NCBI GenBank assembly: GCA_017437145.1
Contig: JAFSBT010000003.1
Coordinates: 1 to 64,000, forward strand
Length of the DNA: 64,000 nucleotides
Direction: 5' to 3'
Origin: Clostridia bacterium
GTDB taxonomy: Bacteria; Bacillota; Clostridia; TANB77; CAG-508
Both the position numbers and the translations under genes were made by a program. The notes beneath the pieces were generated by a model, which saw only the letters and a list, made by a program, of their open reading frames with translations, searched no databases and was not told the origin of the DNA. This document shows, piece after piece, positions 512-55,010 of the stretch (positions are counted from its first letter, which is position 1; each line of letters begins with the position of its first letter).

Positions 512-538
512 TGTAGGGGCGAACTGTGTTCGTCCGCA
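512..538. repeat. TGTAGGGG palindromic repeat, copy 1
   Basis: Begins tgtaggggcgaac and ends gttcgtccgca; inner arms cgaac and gttcg pair. It is preceded by an AT-rich gtgaataatgaatagttaat tail that also accompanies copies near 2865 and 23655. It belongs to the dispersed family found throughout this window. Confidence 0.8.
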
Positions 539-624
539 TTTAGAAGGGATTTCTAATATAATTTATTTAGCATATATACATTTATTATAAAACGAACACT
601 TAAAATAATTTAAAAATCTTTTTA

Positions 625-653
625 TTTACATAAATACTAAAATATGATATAAT
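625..653 (+). promoter_or_regulatory. Promoter of gene 735
   Basis: TTTACA (625-630), 17-bp spacer, TATAAT (648-653) with TGA directly upstream (extended -10). The spacing and extended -10 match the other single-gene cassettes in this window. Confidence 0.75.
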
Positions 654-660
654 TCTGATT

Positions 661-698
661 GTAAAAGTACGGTTAATAAACCGTTGGTCAGACTTTTA
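661..698 (+). promoter_or_regulatory. Structured leader of gene 735
   Basis: Outer stem taaaagt (662-668) pairs with actttta (692-698). Inner hairpin cggtt/aaccg lies at 670-683, and GGTCAG (686-691) sits between them. GGTCAG also occurs after the leader hairpins of genes 1375, 1984 and 3056. The fold is read from the sequence; any regulatory role is inferred. Confidence 0.45.
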
Positions 699-734
699 TA
701 GTTCACTGCAATAACGTTTTTAGGAGTGACATAA

Positions 735-1130
735 GTGTTTAATTTTAAACAAACTTTAGCCAACCGAAGAAAGATGGACGACAGAGATTTTTTCCTTTCA
801 TTTATGCCTGAAAAAATTTTGATAAATGTTATTCTTGCATATGATTCACATAAAGAACAAATTGAATGTCAAAGAAAGGCAAGAAATATACAGCAGGAAA
901 CAGCTATATTTTCTCTGCATTCTTCAGATAATACAGAAGAAATATTCTATGTAACAATAAGATCAAATATTACTAATGATATTATTGAACAAATTTGTTT
1001 ACATACTGATGAAGATGCAATGAAACAAATTTTTAATACTTTAAAGGAAAATCTCAAAAATGAAGGATATAATCCTGTAAATCAAAAAACGGTTGGACGC
1101 GAAATGGATAGATTTTCAATTTATCTATAA
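735..1130 (+). CDS. Unknown protein, 131 aa
   Basis: I do not recognise a family. The product is soluble and mixed-charge with a basic N-terminus and no signal peptide or membrane segment. The GTG start is chosen because taggag (721-726) sits at the right distance. It is a single-gene unit with its own promoter, a structured leader of about 75 nt and a strong terminator straight after the stop. Together with genes 1375-1984 it forms an islet of short unknown genes next to tRNA-Asn. The codons include more CGA/CGC and fewer AGA than the housekeeping genes, which hints at transfer. Confidence 0.7.
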   Translation: MFNFKQTLANRRKMDDRDFFLSFMPEKILINVILAYDSHKEQIECQRKARNIQQETAIFSLHSSDNTEEIFYVTIRSNITNDIIEQICLHTDEDAMKQIFNTLKENLKNEGYNPVNQKTVGREMDRFSIYL

Positions 1131-1134
1131 TGTC

Positions 1135-1173
1135 AAAAAAAATAGTCTTGGTTTGACTGAGACTATTTTTTTT
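1135..1173 (+). terminator. Terminator after gene 735
   Basis: aatagtct (1141-1148) pairs with agactatt (1160-1167), flanked by A-run and T-run, so it may work in both directions. Confidence 0.85.
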
Positions 1174-1245
1174 CTTTTGTTACAATACATACAAAGCAAC
1201 TGCTCCAATGGAGTAGTTAAGAAAAAATTTTTTAAAAAATTTGAT

Positions 1246-1274
1246 TTGCAATTAACATAAAAATATGATAATAT
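1246..1274 (+). promoter_or_regulatory. Promoter of genes 1375-1638
   Basis: TTGCAA (1246-1251), 17-bp spacer, TAATAT (1269-1274) with TGA upstream. Almost the same promoter precedes gene 1984 (TTGCAATTAA shared). Confidence 0.7.
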
Positions 1275-1280
1275 ATATAA

Positions 1281-1342
1281 GTAAAAAAATTAGCATATAT
1301 CCTTATTTTTTACAACTATGGAACAGAAATGTTCGAGGTCAG
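1281..1342 (+). promoter_or_regulatory. Conserved leader RNA motif, copy A
   Basis: Stem gtaaaaaa (1281-1288) pairs with ttttttac (1306-1313) around a loop with TAGCATATATCCTTA. A small hairpin gaaca-gaaa-tgttc (1321-1334) and GGTCAG (1337-1342) follow. The loop and GGTCAG recur at 1900 and 2975 with different but compensating stem bases. No known riboswitch consensus is recognised. Confidence 0.6.
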
Positions 1343-1374
1343 CATAGGAAAAAATATTTAAAGGAGAGAACAAT

Positions 1375-1563
1375 ATGTTATCCAAAATCAAATTAAAACC
1401 TTTTGATAAAGGATTTATTGGAAGAGCTAAAAGAAGTGATAGAGCACCTTATAGGGAGAAAAGGCGAGAATCAGAAAACAGATCTTTCGGAAAAGACTCT
1501 TATTTTATTACACCAGAAAAACCTGAAGATATAAAAAAATGTCCAAAAGGAATAAAAAGGTAA
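1375..1563 (+). CDS. Unknown small basic protein, 62 aa
   Basis: A lysine/arginine-rich peptide (RAKRSDR, REKRRES) with no hydrophobic segment, so it is cytosolic and possibly binds nucleic acid or ribosomes. That is inference from charge only. AGGAGAG lies 8-10 nt before ATG. It is followed after 74 nt by gene 1638, another small charged protein, with no terminator between them, so the two are probably co-transcribed from the promoter at 1246. No family recognised. Confidence 0.65.
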   Translation: MLSKIKLKPFDKGFIGRAKRSDRAPYREKRRESENRSFGKDSYFITPEKPEDIKKCPKGIKR

Positions 1564-1637
1564 ATCATTAAAATTATCTTTTAAATACTTGTTGGTAAGC
1601 ATAGAAAAAAAATTATCATAGAGGTGAGATACTACAT

Positions 1638-1823
1638 ATGCCAAAGGAAAAATTTCAACGTGCTAAGCCTAAAATGACTGGCAAAGAACTCTTGGATGGA
1701 ATAGTTTGTCCATCAACTCCTGCAAGAGAAAAGATGAGAGAAGCAACTTTTGAAAAAATGCAAAGAATTGAAGAAAGATTAAAAAATGAAATCGAAACGC
1801 GTGAAACTTCAGAGGCTAAATAA
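1638..1823 (+). CDS. Unknown small charged protein, 61 aa
   Basis: Starts at ATG with gaggtgag 11-17 nt upstream. The second half is strongly helical and charged (KMQRIEERLKNEIETRE), suggesting a short coiled coil. A single Cys lies in GIVCPS. It is second in a two-gene unit with gene 1375 and ends in a strong terminator. No family is recognised. The bias to charged residues in both partners suggests they might act together, but nothing in the sequence proves this. Confidence 0.65.
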   Translation: MPKEKFQRAKPKMTGKELLDGIVCPSTPAREKMREATFEKMQRIEERLKNEIETRETSEAK

Positions 1824-1827
1824 CAAC

Positions 1828-1864
1828 AAGGCTCTTTGACTTAATAAGTCGAAGGGTCTTTTTT
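1828..1864 (+). terminator. Terminator after gene 1638
   Basis: About 15 bp with G-T pairs: aaggctctttgactt (1828-1842) against aagtcgaagggtctt (1846-1860), then a T-run. The next promoter overlaps its tail. Confidence 0.85.
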
Positions 1865-1865
1865 C

Positions 1866-1894
1866 TTGCAATTAATATAAAAGTATGGTAATAT
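1866..1894 (+). promoter_or_regulatory. Promoter of gene 1984
   Basis: TTGCAA (1866-1871), 17-bp spacer, TAATAT (1889-1894) preceded by TGG. Confidence 0.7.
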
Positions 1895-1899
1895 ATTAA

Positions 1900-1943
1900 T
1901 GCAAAAATGTGCAATAATCCTTATTTTTGCAACTACAGGTCAG
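1900..1943 (+). promoter_or_regulatory. Conserved leader RNA motif, copy B
   Basis: Stem tgcaaaaa (1900-1907) pairs with tttttgca (1924-1931) around loop TGTGCAATAATCCTTA, followed by aactacaGGTCAG (GGTCAG 1938-1943). It is the shortest version of the motif, without the extra hairpin seen in copy A. Confidence 0.6.
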
Positions 1944-1983
1944 ACAGTTATTATAAAATAATTTTTAAAGGAGGGAATCTTAT

Positions 1984-2295
1984 ATGCTATACAGAGCTAA
2001 AGTCACATCTATTCCGCTTAGAGACGCATATAAACATAGAAAGATTGGTGCAACTTCTCACTGGATAGTGCGGGGCAATTTAATTGGTATTAAACGCCAT
2101 CGCTTATTTGCACTTATGGAATTACATATTTTCTTTCATGATGATGATAATATGCATATTAGTATACACTATGTACTTCCTGATGGAGCACGCGTTTCTA
2201 CAGGTGAAGGACAACTATATTCATTAACTGAATTAGAGGCAAAATACCCTAAATTGTTCCAAAAAAAAGGAACACTGTGTTTCTACCCCAAATAA
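1984..2295 (+). CDS. Unknown protein, 103 aa
   Basis: A soluble protein with no signal or membrane segment. The middle has a His/Asp-rich stretch (FFHDDDNMHISIHY) that could bind metal, which is inference only. GGAGGG precedes ATG by 8 nt. Its own promoter, conserved leader RNA and terminator make it a self-contained cassette. Codons such as CGC, CGG and GCG are much commoner than in the housekeeping operons, supporting foreign origin. No family recognised. Confidence 0.7.
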   Translation: MLYRAKVTSIPLRDAYKHRKIGATSHWIVRGNLIGIKRHRLFALMELHIFFHDDDNMHISIHYVLPDGARVSTGEGQLYSLTELEAKYPKLFQKKGTLCFYPK

Positions 2296-2321
2296 AAGCA
2301 TTTAGGATAAAGTAACAGAAT

Positions 2322-2353
2322 GAAAACCGCACGTAAAGCGTGCGGTTTTCATT
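2322..2353 (+). terminator. Terminator after gene 1984
   Basis: Perfect 12-bp stem gaaaaccgcacg / cgtgcggttttc with loop taaag. The A- and T-rich flanks allow use on either strand. Confidence 0.8.
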
Positions 2354-2506
2354 AATTTTATTTAATACATATTCCTCAACAATACTTTCAATCATATTAT
2401 TGTATCTAGCCATAACAATAAATTCATTTGTTTTAGGTTCAGGATATGTTTGTTTTAATTGCTTTTCAATAAATGATTTGTATTCTGTAAGTTCTTTGAT
2501 TTTCAT
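2351..2506 (-). pseudogene. Possible remnant of a small minus-strand gene
   Basis: On the minus strand an open frame starts MKIKELTEYKSFIEKQ and continues with a plausible soluble helical sequence to about 2351. It has no good ribosome binding site and its frame runs on through the terminator hairpin at 2322. It lies just downstream of two tiny minus-strand open frames (2614-2691, 2541-2612). I read the group as either a decayed gene or a set of small peptides. The true 3' end is unclear, so the end given is where the hairpin begins. Confidence 0.3.
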
Positions 2507-2540
2507 AAAGATAATCCATAAGAGTACAATTTATAGTTAA

Positions 2541-2612
2541 TTAGCTATATTTAATAGGTTTATATTCCTTTAAATATTTTTTTAATATAATTTCATATTT
2601 ATCTAAAGCCAT
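2541..2612 (-). CDS. Possible 23-aa peptide
   Basis: ATG at 2612 (minus strand) preceded by a strong AGGAGG at normal spacing, reading MALDKYEIILKKYLKEY before TAA. The ribosome binding site lies inside the end of the next upstream small frame, as in translational coupling. The peptide is too short to classify. It may be real or the 5' end of a broken gene. Confidence 0.35.
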   Translation of the reverse strand: MALDKYEIILKKYLKEYKPIKYS

Positions 2613-2613
2613 T

Positions 2614-2691
2614 CTACTTACCTCCTAAATTAGAAAGTATTAAGTTCAAACAATCTCTAAAATCATATTTATAGTACTTATACATTAACAT
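2614..2691 (-). CDS. Possible 25-aa peptide
   Basis: Minus-strand ATG at 2691 with AAAGGTGG upstream, reading MLMYKYYKYDFRDCLNL to a TAG at 2614. The next small frame starts one base after that stop. Two good ribosome binding sites in series are unusual for random sequence. No family is recognised. Confidence 0.35.
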   Translation of the reverse strand: MLMYKYYKYDFRDCLNLILSNLGGK

Positions 2692-2770
2692 TATAAATAC
2701 CACCTTTCAAACTTGTATCTAATTTCAATATTGATATAAATTCTAATTCGCATATATGTATGTCTCCGGT

Positions 2771-2816
2771 CTTGGGGAGCAAAAAAAAAACTGATACGAA
2801 ACGTATCAGTTTTTTT
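2771..2816 (+). repeat. tRNA-Asn acceptor-like 10-mer and adjoining terminator
   Basis: cttggggagc (2771-2780) matches the tRNA-Asn 3' end (212-221). It is followed by an A-run and the hairpin ctgatacg-aaa-cgtatcag with T-run (to 2816). With the T-arm copy at 434 this could mark the far edge of an element inserted at tRNA-Asn. Ten bases is weak evidence. Confidence 0.35.
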
Positions 2817-2864
2817 ATGAATAATGAATAGTGAATAGTTAATAATTTTAAGATGCAGAGTATA

Positions 2865-2890
2865 TGTAGGGGTCGTCGCCCACGGCGATT
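2865..2890. repeat. TGTAGGGG palindromic repeat, copy 2
   Basis: tgtaggggtcgtcgcc... with ggcgat as imperfect return arm. It carries the same gaatagttaat upstream tail as copy 1. Confidence 0.7.
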
Positions 2891-2939
2891 CTATGTGAAA
2901 GGAACTGACTGAAATGGGTTATAAATAAACTTTATTCTA

Positions 2940-2968
2940 TTGCAAAAATTATGTAAATATGATAAAAT
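2940..2968 (+). promoter_or_regulatory. Promoter of gene 3056
   Basis: TTGCAA (2940-2945), 17-bp spacer, TAAAAT (2963-2968) with TGA directly upstream. Confidence 0.7.
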
Positions 2969-2974
2969 ATCAAA

Positions 2975-3019
2975 GCAAAACTTTTAGCAAATATCCTTAT
3001 GTTTTGCCTGTAAGGTCAG
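2975..3019 (+). promoter_or_regulatory. Conserved leader RNA motif, copy C
   Basis: Stem gcaaaac (2975-2981) pairs with gttttgc (3001-3007) around a loop with TAGCAAATATCCTTA. GGTCAG follows at 3014-3019. Compared with copies A and B the stem bases change on both sides while loop and GGTCAG stay. Confidence 0.6.
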
Positions 3020-3055
3020 TGCAGTAAATAATTTTAAAAGGAAAGGAAAAGTTTT

Positions 3056-3964
3056 ATGCAATCAAGAGAGTTTATTTCAAGAGGTAAAGCTTTTTTTCGG
3101 GATTTAAGAAAAGGCAATGAAAAATTTAAGTCAGAAATAAAAACAGAAATGGGTATTAGTTTTCCTGTTATAGATAAAATTATGCCTAATTTATTATTGA
3201 ATGGCCCATTAAAAGCAACAACTACGAAGAAACTAATGATTAATCCAAATTATCAATCATTTGCAGGAATTTATATTTCAAAAGATTCTATTGATATATC
3301 AGTGATAGATTTCTCAGGAAAAGAAATTCATTTTGAGACAAAAAAATTTGGTTTAGAGCTGTCATTTTTTGAAGCTTTACAAGAAGTCTTAAATCTGGAT
3401 TCATCAATTAAGGCAGTATCAATTTGCTCTGATGACTATTATGATTATTATGGAAATGCAAAAATAAATGAGTATTTTTTCATAGATAATAAGTTCATCA
3501 AAGAATATCTGCCTGATGGAATTGAATACTATTTTGAGAAAACTTGTGTAACAAATTCTTTCAAGTGGTATGAAGATGCTGAAAGTGACGAATTAAATGT
3601 TATTTTTTCTTTTTTTGGAGATGACTCATATTATACTATTATGAAAAACGGAGTTATAGTTCAAAAAAGAAGATATACAAAGAGTCTTGAGAAAATAAGT
3701 GATTTTTACGAAAACGTAATCTTTCCTGTATGGCAGACAATAAACCCTGACAATATGATATTTATTGCACCATTTGAAAATATTTTTGATTTTATAAAAT
3801 GTAATATACCAACATGGAGCGAAAAAATTAAAATGTCAGACATGGTTATTAATCAATGTTTCGAAATAAAAACAAGAACAAAATTGATTGTACAAGAACA
3901 AGTTCATTCTTCAGAAGCTGCTGCATTTCACGCAATGTACAGCTATTATGGATGGACGAAGTAA
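3056..3964 (+). CDS. ROK-like protein, degenerate
   Basis: 302 aa. Residues about 30-60 resemble the end of a winged helix (ISFPVIDKIMPNLLLNG). They are followed by a ROK/ASKHA-like opening (FAGIYISKDSIDISVIDFSGK) and a C-terminal SSEAAAFHAMY like the ROK 'GAA' helix. The glycine-rich phosphate loops and the zinc Cys cluster of sugar-kinase ROK proteins are not visible. It is therefore more likely a sensor or regulator than a kinase. It is monocistronic with promoter, conserved leader RNA and terminator; no sugar genes adjoin. ATG has AAAGGAAAGG upstream. The family call is by eye and tentative. Confidence 0.5.
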   Translation: MQSREFISRGKAFFRDLRKGNEKFKSEIKTEMGISFPVIDKIMPNLLLNGPLKATTTKKLMINPNYQSFAGIYISKDSIDISVIDFSGKEIHFETKKFGLELSFFEALQEVLNLDSSIKAVSICSDDYYDYYGNAKINEYFFIDNKFIKEYLPDGIEYYFEKTCVTNSFKWYEDAESDELNVIFSFFGDDSYYTIMKNGVIVQKRRYTKSLEKISDFYENVIFPVWQTINPDNMIFIAPFENIFDFIKCNIPTWSEKIKMSDMVINQCFEIKTRTKLIVQEQVHSSEAAAFHAMYSYYGWTK

Positions 3965-3969
3965 GATAA

Positions 3970-3998
3970 AGGAGCATTCTACGAAGGAATGCTCTTTT
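3970..3998 (+). terminator. Terminator after gene 3056
   Basis: gagcattc (3972-3979) pairs with gaatgctc (3987-3994), then TTTT. Confidence 0.8.
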
Positions 3999-4094
3999 GC
4001 TATTTTAATATTATTGTAATTTAAAAATATAACATCTAAATTCCAAACACATAAACACAAATTATATACTTAACTCATTTTACCTATAACAGTC

Positions 4095-4123: not shown

Positions 4124-4140
4124 TTTAGCATTATATTGAA

Positions 4141-4407
4141 AAGCAATGAAGAGAAATAGTATATATTTATGAACTTTCAGAGAAGAGTTGGTTGGTGAAA
4201 AACTTTAAGGAATTAAATATAGAACCAGTCTTGGAGCTGTATAGCAGAAAATAAAAGTAAGCTTTATCGGAAATCCACCGTTATCATAGGATATAATGTT
4301 GAAATGTAAAATGTAGACATTAGCAGAGTGTAGAAGAAATTCTAAATATAGGTGGTAACACGGATAATATATTCGCCCTAAGTTGATAAAACAGCTTAGG
4401 GTTTTTT
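4141..4407 (+). promoter_or_regulatory. T-box riboswitch, Pro specifier CCA
   Basis: Stem I is readable. The lower helix aaga (4149-4152)/tctt (4229-4232) and upper helix tatattta (4162-4169)/taaatata (4214-4221) enclose a loop with AGTA and, on the 3' side, GAA-CCA-G. The specifier CCA at 4225-4227 is a proline codon. The T-box sequence ggtggtaacacgg lies near 4351-4363, and terminator ccctaag/cttaggg with T-run at 4376-4407. In this family uncharged tRNA-Pro pairs at specifier and T-box and favours antitermination, so proS is induced by proline-tRNA shortage. Confidence 0.9.
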
Positions 4408-54444: not shown

Positions 54445-54530
54445 TTAATACTCTAATGAATAACATAAATAAAATATTGAACAAAAAAAGCTTTTATGTT
54501 AAAATATTATAAATTTTAAATATAATTTAA

Positions 54531-54604
54531 TTAGCTAGGTCAGTTTGCTAATTTTTACATAAATTCACATGTAATACAAGTTAGCAAAAAAGCTAATTTG
54601 TATT
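54531..54604 (+). promoter_or_regulatory. Structured leader of gene 54636
   Basis: ttagc...GGTCAG...gctaa (54531-54552) followed by a 13-bp stem aatacaagttagc/gctaatttgtatt with an A6 loop (54573-54604). No T-run. GGTCAG (54538-54543) is shared with the leaders at 661, 1281, 1900 and 2975. Confidence 0.45.
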
Positions 54605-54635: not shown

Positions 54636-55010
54636 ATGAAGATTGCAAGATATATTTTTAATGTTCTTACAGTTATATCAGTAATAGCTACAATTGTTGT
54701 AGTCATTATAGGTAAAAGTGCTTTGATGATGATTTTTTTAATGGCTGCAATAATATTTTTTTCTGTATCTGATAAATTCAAACAAAAAGAAACTGCAAGT
54801 GAAATACGTGAATTGGCTAGTAAAGAATATGTTGAAATCCAATTAAAAGAATCTACGAATCCTATATGGGATGAAGTGCGGAAACACGGTAATTGTTATA
54901 TGAAAATTCAGGGGGATATTGCAACAATAAAAGTTGTTATTGGTGAGAAAGAAATAGAAATACCACCAATTAAATTAACAGATATTGAAAAATATATTAA
55001 TACAGACTAA
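54636..55010 (+). CDS. Unknown membrane-anchored protein, 124 aa
   Basis: Two hydrophobic helices at about 7-28 and 31-48, then a charged cytosolic domain (KQKETASEIRELASKEYVEIQLKES ...). No family recognised. ATG 54636 follows AAGGAAG. Monocistronic with a strongly folded leader. Confidence 0.6.
   Translation: MKIARYIFNVLTVISVIATIVVVIIGKSALMMIFLMAAIIFFSVSDKFKQKETASEIRELASKEYVEIQLKESTNPIWDEVRKHGNCYMKIQGDIATIKVVIGEKEIEIPPIKLTDIEKYINTD

Follow-up and report, generated by a model that had tools for sequence, protein, structure and literature searches.

The CsrA/RsmA system is built on one global RNA-binding protein that recognizes GGA, as a rule at multiple sites close to where the ribosome binds, and the threonyl-tRNA synthetase operator is a mimic of the anticodon arm. 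In this article, I will discuss a set of leaders carrying the hexamer GGUCAG (GGTCAG in the DNA) that resemble CsrA/RsmA sites in being short hairpins on many unrelated genes with a fixed motif in a single-stranded loop, the kissing targets of trans-encoded sRNA regulons in joining a fixed loop to a free stem in many mRNAs, and the T-box (RF00230) and other Rfam leader families in placing a structured leader between promoter and gene. Some copies even share the outline of the threonyl-tRNA synthetase operator, with exactly 5 pairs and a 7-base loop in which GUC, the Asp anticodon, is central, although here only the geometry was compared. The leaders were recognized in a window of 64 kb (the whole stretch of Clostridia DNA that was analyzed) and, when compared across copies and genomes, they show the conserved, covarying structure of cis-acting leader RNAs. 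I consider it fairly probable that they form a lineage-restricted family whose GGUCAG is read by a trans-acting factor controlling an accessory regulon.

The original prediction had singled out three leaders whose first hairpin, called P1 here, changes its stem bases and still pairs, with GGTCAG following and an extra small hairpin in one copy, and all of this is found in the sequence at the expected places. All three lie on the forward strand, each with a promoter directly on its 5' side and a Shine-Dalgarno site on its 3' side. Copy 1 follows a promoter at 1246..1274 (TTGCAA-17-TAATAT, the other copies being laid out alike) with a P1 hairpin at 1281..1313 (arms GTAAAAAA/TTTTTTAC at 1281-1288/1306-1313, loop ATTAGCATATATCCTTA) that scores 94.4 bits with R2, a covariance model of P1, P2 and P3, and with a second hairpin, P2, at 1316..1347 (CTATG/CATAG, bulge GAGGTCAG, GGTCAG at 1337-1342) that scores 55.8 bits with R1, a model of P2 and P3. 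The extra hairpin, P3, sits inside P2 at 1321-1334 (GAACA-GAAA-TGTTC) and recurs in other leaders. Downstream come a gene for a 62-aa orphan protein (1375..1563, +), a 61-aa ORF (1638-1823, +) and a terminator found by scan, as were the others given below (1828-1860). Copy 2 (promoter 1866..1894, TTGCAA-17-TAATAT; leader 1900..1949) has P1 arms TGCAAAAA/TTTTTGCA at 1900-1907/1924-1931, GGTCAG at 1938 in the loop CAGGTCAGA, and a P2 of AACTA/CAGTT whose one mismatch is repaired to AACTG/CAGTT in the sister species Clostridiales bacterium SIG349 (SVGD01), which genome G084 matches; a 103-aa orphan protein gene (1984..2295, +) and a terminator (2319-2353) follow. Copy 3 (promoter 2940..2968, TTGCAA-17-TAAAAT; leader 2975..3024, 41.3 bits with R2) has P1 arms GCAAAAC/GTTTTGC at 2975-2981/3001-3007, and its P2, CTGTA/TGCAG, closes the 7-base loop AGGTCAG (GGTCAG at 3014) ahead of a gene for a 302-aa divergent ROK-like protein (3056..3964, +) and a terminator (3967-3999). 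The P1 loops of copies 1, 2 and 3 contain AGCATATATCCTTA, TGCAATAATCCTTA and AGCAAATATCCTTA, respectively. An ordinary T-box leader (RF00230, Rfam 113 bits) stands before proS at 4137-4383.

Two leaders of the window had been missed. Copy 4 (657..703, +) lies behind a promoter at 625..653 (TTTACA-17-TATAAT, an 11/12 match in the promoter scan, with a TG extension) and lacks P1; its P2, GATTGTAAAAGT/ACTTTTATAGTT, encloses the P3 ACGGTT-AATA-AACCGT and TGGTCAG, and it precedes a 131-aa orphan protein gene (735..1130, +) kept in SIG349/G084, with a terminator at 1135-1173. A probable copy 5 (54521..54553, +) consists of a -10 box TATAAT at 54521-54526 and a hairpin at 54529-54553 (P2 AATTAGC/GCTAATT, loop TAGGTCAGTTT), upstream of an ORF at 54636-55010 (+), and the identical stretch is present in G084. 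What had also been overlooked is P2 itself, the more general element: the leaders and their P1 hairpin are real, but P1 with its CCTTA loop belongs to part of the set only, and the invariant core, judged by comparison of the copies, is the P2 hairpin with GGUCAG rather than the P1 loop. GGUCAG lies in the P2 loop, or in a 3' bulge created where the optional inner hairpin P3 is inserted, and many leaders have the additional 5' hairpin P1 with a YGCA..CC-type loop, while about half of the members are without it and several amount to no more than a stem of 5 to 8 pairs closing a loop of 7 to 9 bases. In most leaders a hairpin begins 2 to 8 bases past the -10 box, that is, at the predicted 5' end; P2 often starts a few bases from the predicted transcription start, P1 taking that place in P1-bearing leaders, and the leaders of L343 and L007 are not at the very 5' end. 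The uneven presence of P1, these two positions and the mismatch of copy 2 count against a common reading of the leaders, as do several imperfect members: P1 is degenerate in L141, P2 is absent in L294, which has AGTCAG, and a promoter-linked GGTCAG stands without a convincing stem at L344, L357 and a 57-aa gene of G227.

The evidence that these structures are selected comes from pairing. With arms chosen by rule, the duplex energy between the 5' and 3' regions of one leader was set against that obtained with swapped partners in permutations, a test that ignores relatedness, for which a non-redundant set dropping the main groups of similar stems was also used. For P1, own arms beat swapped ones in the 8 P1-type leaders (p=0.0002) and, once two later copies had been added to make 10, in all permutations (0/50,000 as good); for P2, the 23 promoter-linked GGTCAG leaders, stemless ones included, gave z=-8.5 and the 15 non-redundant leaders z=-5.7, each with 0/50,000. 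P3, in a plain MAFFT alignment, shows double-sided changes at 4/5 pairs with every cell paired, and the signal is abolished when the partner is slid along the alignment. Folding of single sequences gave no excess stability (z -1.0 to +0.6 for copies 1-3), so that support for the structure rests on comparison and not on folding energy. By this comparison the leader structure is well supported, and the original claim of a selected RNA structure holds, with covariation in P1, P2 and P3 and recurrence of the motif in other genomes. Since the stems differ and yet pair, a longer DNA repeat does not account for the copies, and the predicted transcription start lies just upstream of the motif rather than downstream of it.

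The motif is likewise not confined to this locus. Searches by pattern, by R1 and R2, and through the upstream regions of neighboring genes found at least 10 more promoter-linked copies elsewhere in the 1.56-Mb genome. They stand before genes for 165 aa (C13:295.4k), a 323-aa ROK-like paralogue of the copy 3 protein (C5:219.2k), 177 aa (C5:238.4k), 112 aa (C5:236.1k, with AGTCAG and P2 lost), 80-85 aa (C5:260.1k), 115 aa (C5:225.9k), apparent paralogues of 135 and 131 aa (C5:223.9k and the preceding gene), two divergent genes of 392 and 145 aa with the loop TAGGTCAGG in both (C5:255.8k), and a PFK-like protein (C15:45.5k), whereas the stemless leaders at L344 (NagB-like) and L357 have a promoter and then GGTCAG. 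The R1 matches at C5:68279 and C4:109387 and the R2 matches at L298/L299 are coding and were judged chance. At L344, the leaders of a 114-aa gene and of the NagB-like gene both have GATTACTGCAATGTCAA after the promoter, with GGTCAG in one only, and GATTACTGCAATGTCAA is perhaps a second leader element; at L357 (about 1500-1545, reverse strand) and L405, the leader of an 82-83-aa gene has GGTCAG and then the hairpin TAGGCGGAAACGCCTA, conserved in two species.

Beyond this genome, leaders with intact, differing stems occur in G084, G117, G143, G204 and G227, all of the same genus. In a scan of 17 genomes of the genus for a -10 box, GGTCAG and flank, the own genome and G084 alone gave raw counts clearly above a reversed-pattern control. 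The bulk of the raw matches elsewhere are therefore chance, and the argument rests on the stems: ATTACTG/CAGTAAT ahead of PFK-like genes in G204 and G117; TATAAAAGT/ACTTTTATA with the P3 ACAGT/ACTGT in G143, a relative of the copy 4 leader that precedes an unrelated gene; and, in G227, a stem of 11 pairs together with the P3 GTAGC/GCTAC. One leader was also seen in G073, a different genus of the same family, which matches an uncultured Clostridium MAG (CANOPV01). The covariance-model search that had been proposed for related genomes gave R1 matches in only 6/390 family genomes at E<=0.01, and two of the six are weak and were judged chance; R2 matched nothing among 398 phylum genomes except the own genome. 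Neither model can detect a hairpin of the plain P2 type, so that these counts do not prove the motif missing beyond the genus. An exact-pattern search of contigs returned two copies in SIG349 and a match in one uncultured Clostridium, the remainder being chance matches in coding DNA. G101, G168 and G192 repeat a perfect palindrome, GGGAAAAAGGGGTCAGACCCCTTTTTCCC, behind TATAAT; it includes GGTCAG and is apparently a different repeat. A viral origin was considered and rejected, viral scans having given chance matches in coding DNA only and searches of phage and plasmid DNA no relative.

Now considering what these leaders precede, the targets are mainly unrelated short ORFans, together with divergent PFK-, NagB- and ROK-like proteins, and for most of them Pfam, PHROG and NCBIfam returned nothing. 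PFK active sites usually read TIDND; the PFK-like proteins have TIDGI at that position, where the enzyme of solved structure aligned with them has TIDN, and the NagB-like protein, a relative of glucosamine-6-phosphate deaminase, has FNMP against FNEP in the compared enzyme, both kinds scoring far under the NCBIfam curated cut-offs. The PFK-like proteins of L395, L396, L131 and L403 all combine TIDGI with a GYxSQSN motif behind GGUCAG leaders, and they are probably not ordinary phosphofructokinases; two PFK-like groups, 27-29% identical, have the same leader type (GTTACTG-GGAGGTCAG-CAGTTAC and ATTACTG-NNAGGTCAG-CAGTAAT). The copy 3 protein was modeled with AlphaFold from two sequences, at low confidence (mean pLDDT 45); the order of elements in the model, three N-terminal helices (HTH) followed by a duplicated ASKHA-like pattern, agrees with ROK. 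L341, L342 and L344 hold an apparent family of small paralogues (111-135 aa, tandem or nearby, several behind a GGUCAG leader) with an N-terminal helix and a C-terminal strand ending ITFN/VTF/DIGF, and L398, L407 and L294 hold short cysteine-rich orphan proteins whose leaders have GGTCAG (or AGTCAG). The downstream genes had been called atypical in composition, and as a set they are: set against 44 host ORFs, 19 genes borne by or next to a leader score lower for host codons and higher in GC3 (p about 1e-7 each), although singly those of the window are just mildly atypical, with ranks in the bottom 9-14% of host ORFs. CCG, CAG, CTC and AAG are part of the bias in the more extreme genes, and because these are hardly used in the host proS and aspS, the bias looks foreign rather than expression-tuned.

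Each unit consists of a promoter, a structured leader, a Shine-Dalgarno site and one or two accessory genes, in the window also a terminator (8 terminator-like sites were found against 0.7 expected). From the -35 box through just beyond the terminator, the 177-aa unit of this genome and its SIG349 counterpart are 94% identical, with different upstream neighbors; SIG349 has no copy 3 unit where one would stand between its 103-aa gene and the T-box of proS; and in G038 a decayed leader (GGTCAA for GGTCAG, altered promoter) leads straight to a terminator, the gene gone. From these three cases, units seem to come and go whole, with the loop decayed in the sole remnant seen. A mobile cassette with its own ends was rejected: the breakpoints are promoter and terminator only, no other ends are shared, and no phage or plasmid copies and no recombination site were found. 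In SIG349 the downstream neighbor is shared once a 599-aa gene is set aside, and ordinary local gain and loss therefore suffices. Several units adjoin repeated intergenic palindromes of the form TGTAGGGGTCG..CGACCCCTACA (window 525-545 and 2861-2888; L004 600-630; upstream of the leader in L130; L341 about 760-830), which may be sites where gain and loss are frequent.

That homology between unrelated genes begins at the -35 box and ends roughly at the ribosome site, with similar promoter spacers, and that the 177-aa unit is kept between species from exactly the -35 box to just beyond the terminator while its upstream flank differs, would also suit an element acting as DNA, either a promoter-plus-dyad module that spreads or an operator bound in double-stranded form; a dyad operator, however, should keep its half-sites, and here the half-sites vary yet pair around a fixed, asymmetric center, which makes this quite improbable, whereas shared descent of a promoter-leader module is compatible with a leader RNA. 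Nor do the leaders appear to be translated, the least credible of the readings: in P3-type leaders, ATG..TAG across P2/P3 would spell M-(E/K)-..-R-S-A-stop, and copy 1, L004, L007 and L272 each have a 9-codon frame ending RSA-stop (with CGG for AGG in L007), but the frame is off by one base in L141, absent in copies 2, 3 and 4, L130, L342 and L343, and preceded by no ribosome site, pairing is preserved through the P3 changes, and the peptide was rejected on its reading frame. The position of the hairpin at the predicted 5' end in most leaders could mean that it merely shields the mRNA from 5'-end-dependent decay, the loop sequence being of little weight; I find this unlikely, as it leaves unexplained both the invariance of GGUCAG over unrelated genes and species and its decay in the gene-less G038 remnant.

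A metabolite riboswitch, in which P1 and P2 would kiss through CCUU/AAGG to create a pocket and either free or mask the ribosome site, would suit the compact multi-helix leader, the conserved unpaired segments, the presence of divergent sugar-phosphate enzymes (PFK-like, NagB-like) and ROK-like proteins among the targets, and the CCU of the P1 loop that stands opposite AGG in most P1-type leaders (L272 retains CCUU, but its ribosome site is without AAGG). It has little likelihood in my opinion, since about half of the family does without P1, the smallest members would be small for an aptamer, and the targets, mostly orphans, share no pathway to which a ligand could be linked. The original prediction matched the motif to no known riboswitch, and Rfam 15 concurs: at gathering thresholds the window gives 5S, tRNA and T-box only, with nothing close to threshold for 600-3080 at E up to 10, and 19 other loci give tRNA and tmRNA only, while a full-text search with GGUCAG as a word found no paper in the one collection that it covered.

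I therefore return to the leader RNA read in trans. The motif, its place behind the -10 box, the covariation of P1, P2 and P3, and the recurrence before unrelated genes in several genomes are observed, and the factor and the direction of regulation are inferred. That the loop is constant while the stems vary points to a shared factor reading a single-stranded loop, and a place ahead of the ribosome site and at the 5' end, or close to it, would suit an effect on translation or decay. A single trans-acting factor, for which an RNA-binding protein is the first candidate and an sRNA kissing the loop through a complementary CUGACC the second, would recognize GGUCAG and, by analogy to CsrA with its GGA loops, set the translation or stability of all tagged mRNAs together. 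Where P1 is present, the CCUU in its loop might in addition pair either with AAGG in the P2 bulge or with the AAGGA at which the ribosome binds, making a simple on/off switch; the pairing is compatible with the sequences and indistinguishable from the AG richness of ribosome sites. More tentatively, and with some doubt, I propose a post-transcriptional regulon of one clostridial genus in which GGUCAG hairpins at mRNA 5' ends are recognized by a factor of their own that governs a shifting repertoire of genes, acquired or fast-evolving, new ones being joined to a ready-made promoter-leader module. That many unrelated, foreign-looking genes in one gut-type Clostridia genus share a leader suggests an undescribed RNA tag with one regulator for all. 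If true, such a tag would be a route to joint post-transcriptional control of acquired and orphan genes, would provide a handle on uncharacterized proteins by predicting that they are active under the same conditions, and would enable the factor that reads it to be fished with a short RNA bait.

How far, then, do the described systems reach? The loops carry GGUCAG where CsrA/RsmA sites carry GGA in a hairpin loop, and they do so once per leader and near the 5' end. With the T-box and other Rfam leader families there is no helix, length or conserved box in common. The likeness to the threonyl-tRNA synthetase operator breaks down in that position 33 is G, no target is a synthetase, and loops of 9 bases or an inserted hairpin occur in other copies. 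Structured leaders belong to a known kind of element, and the GGUCAG family, absent from Rfam, is unusual among them in tagging a changing set of orphan genes.
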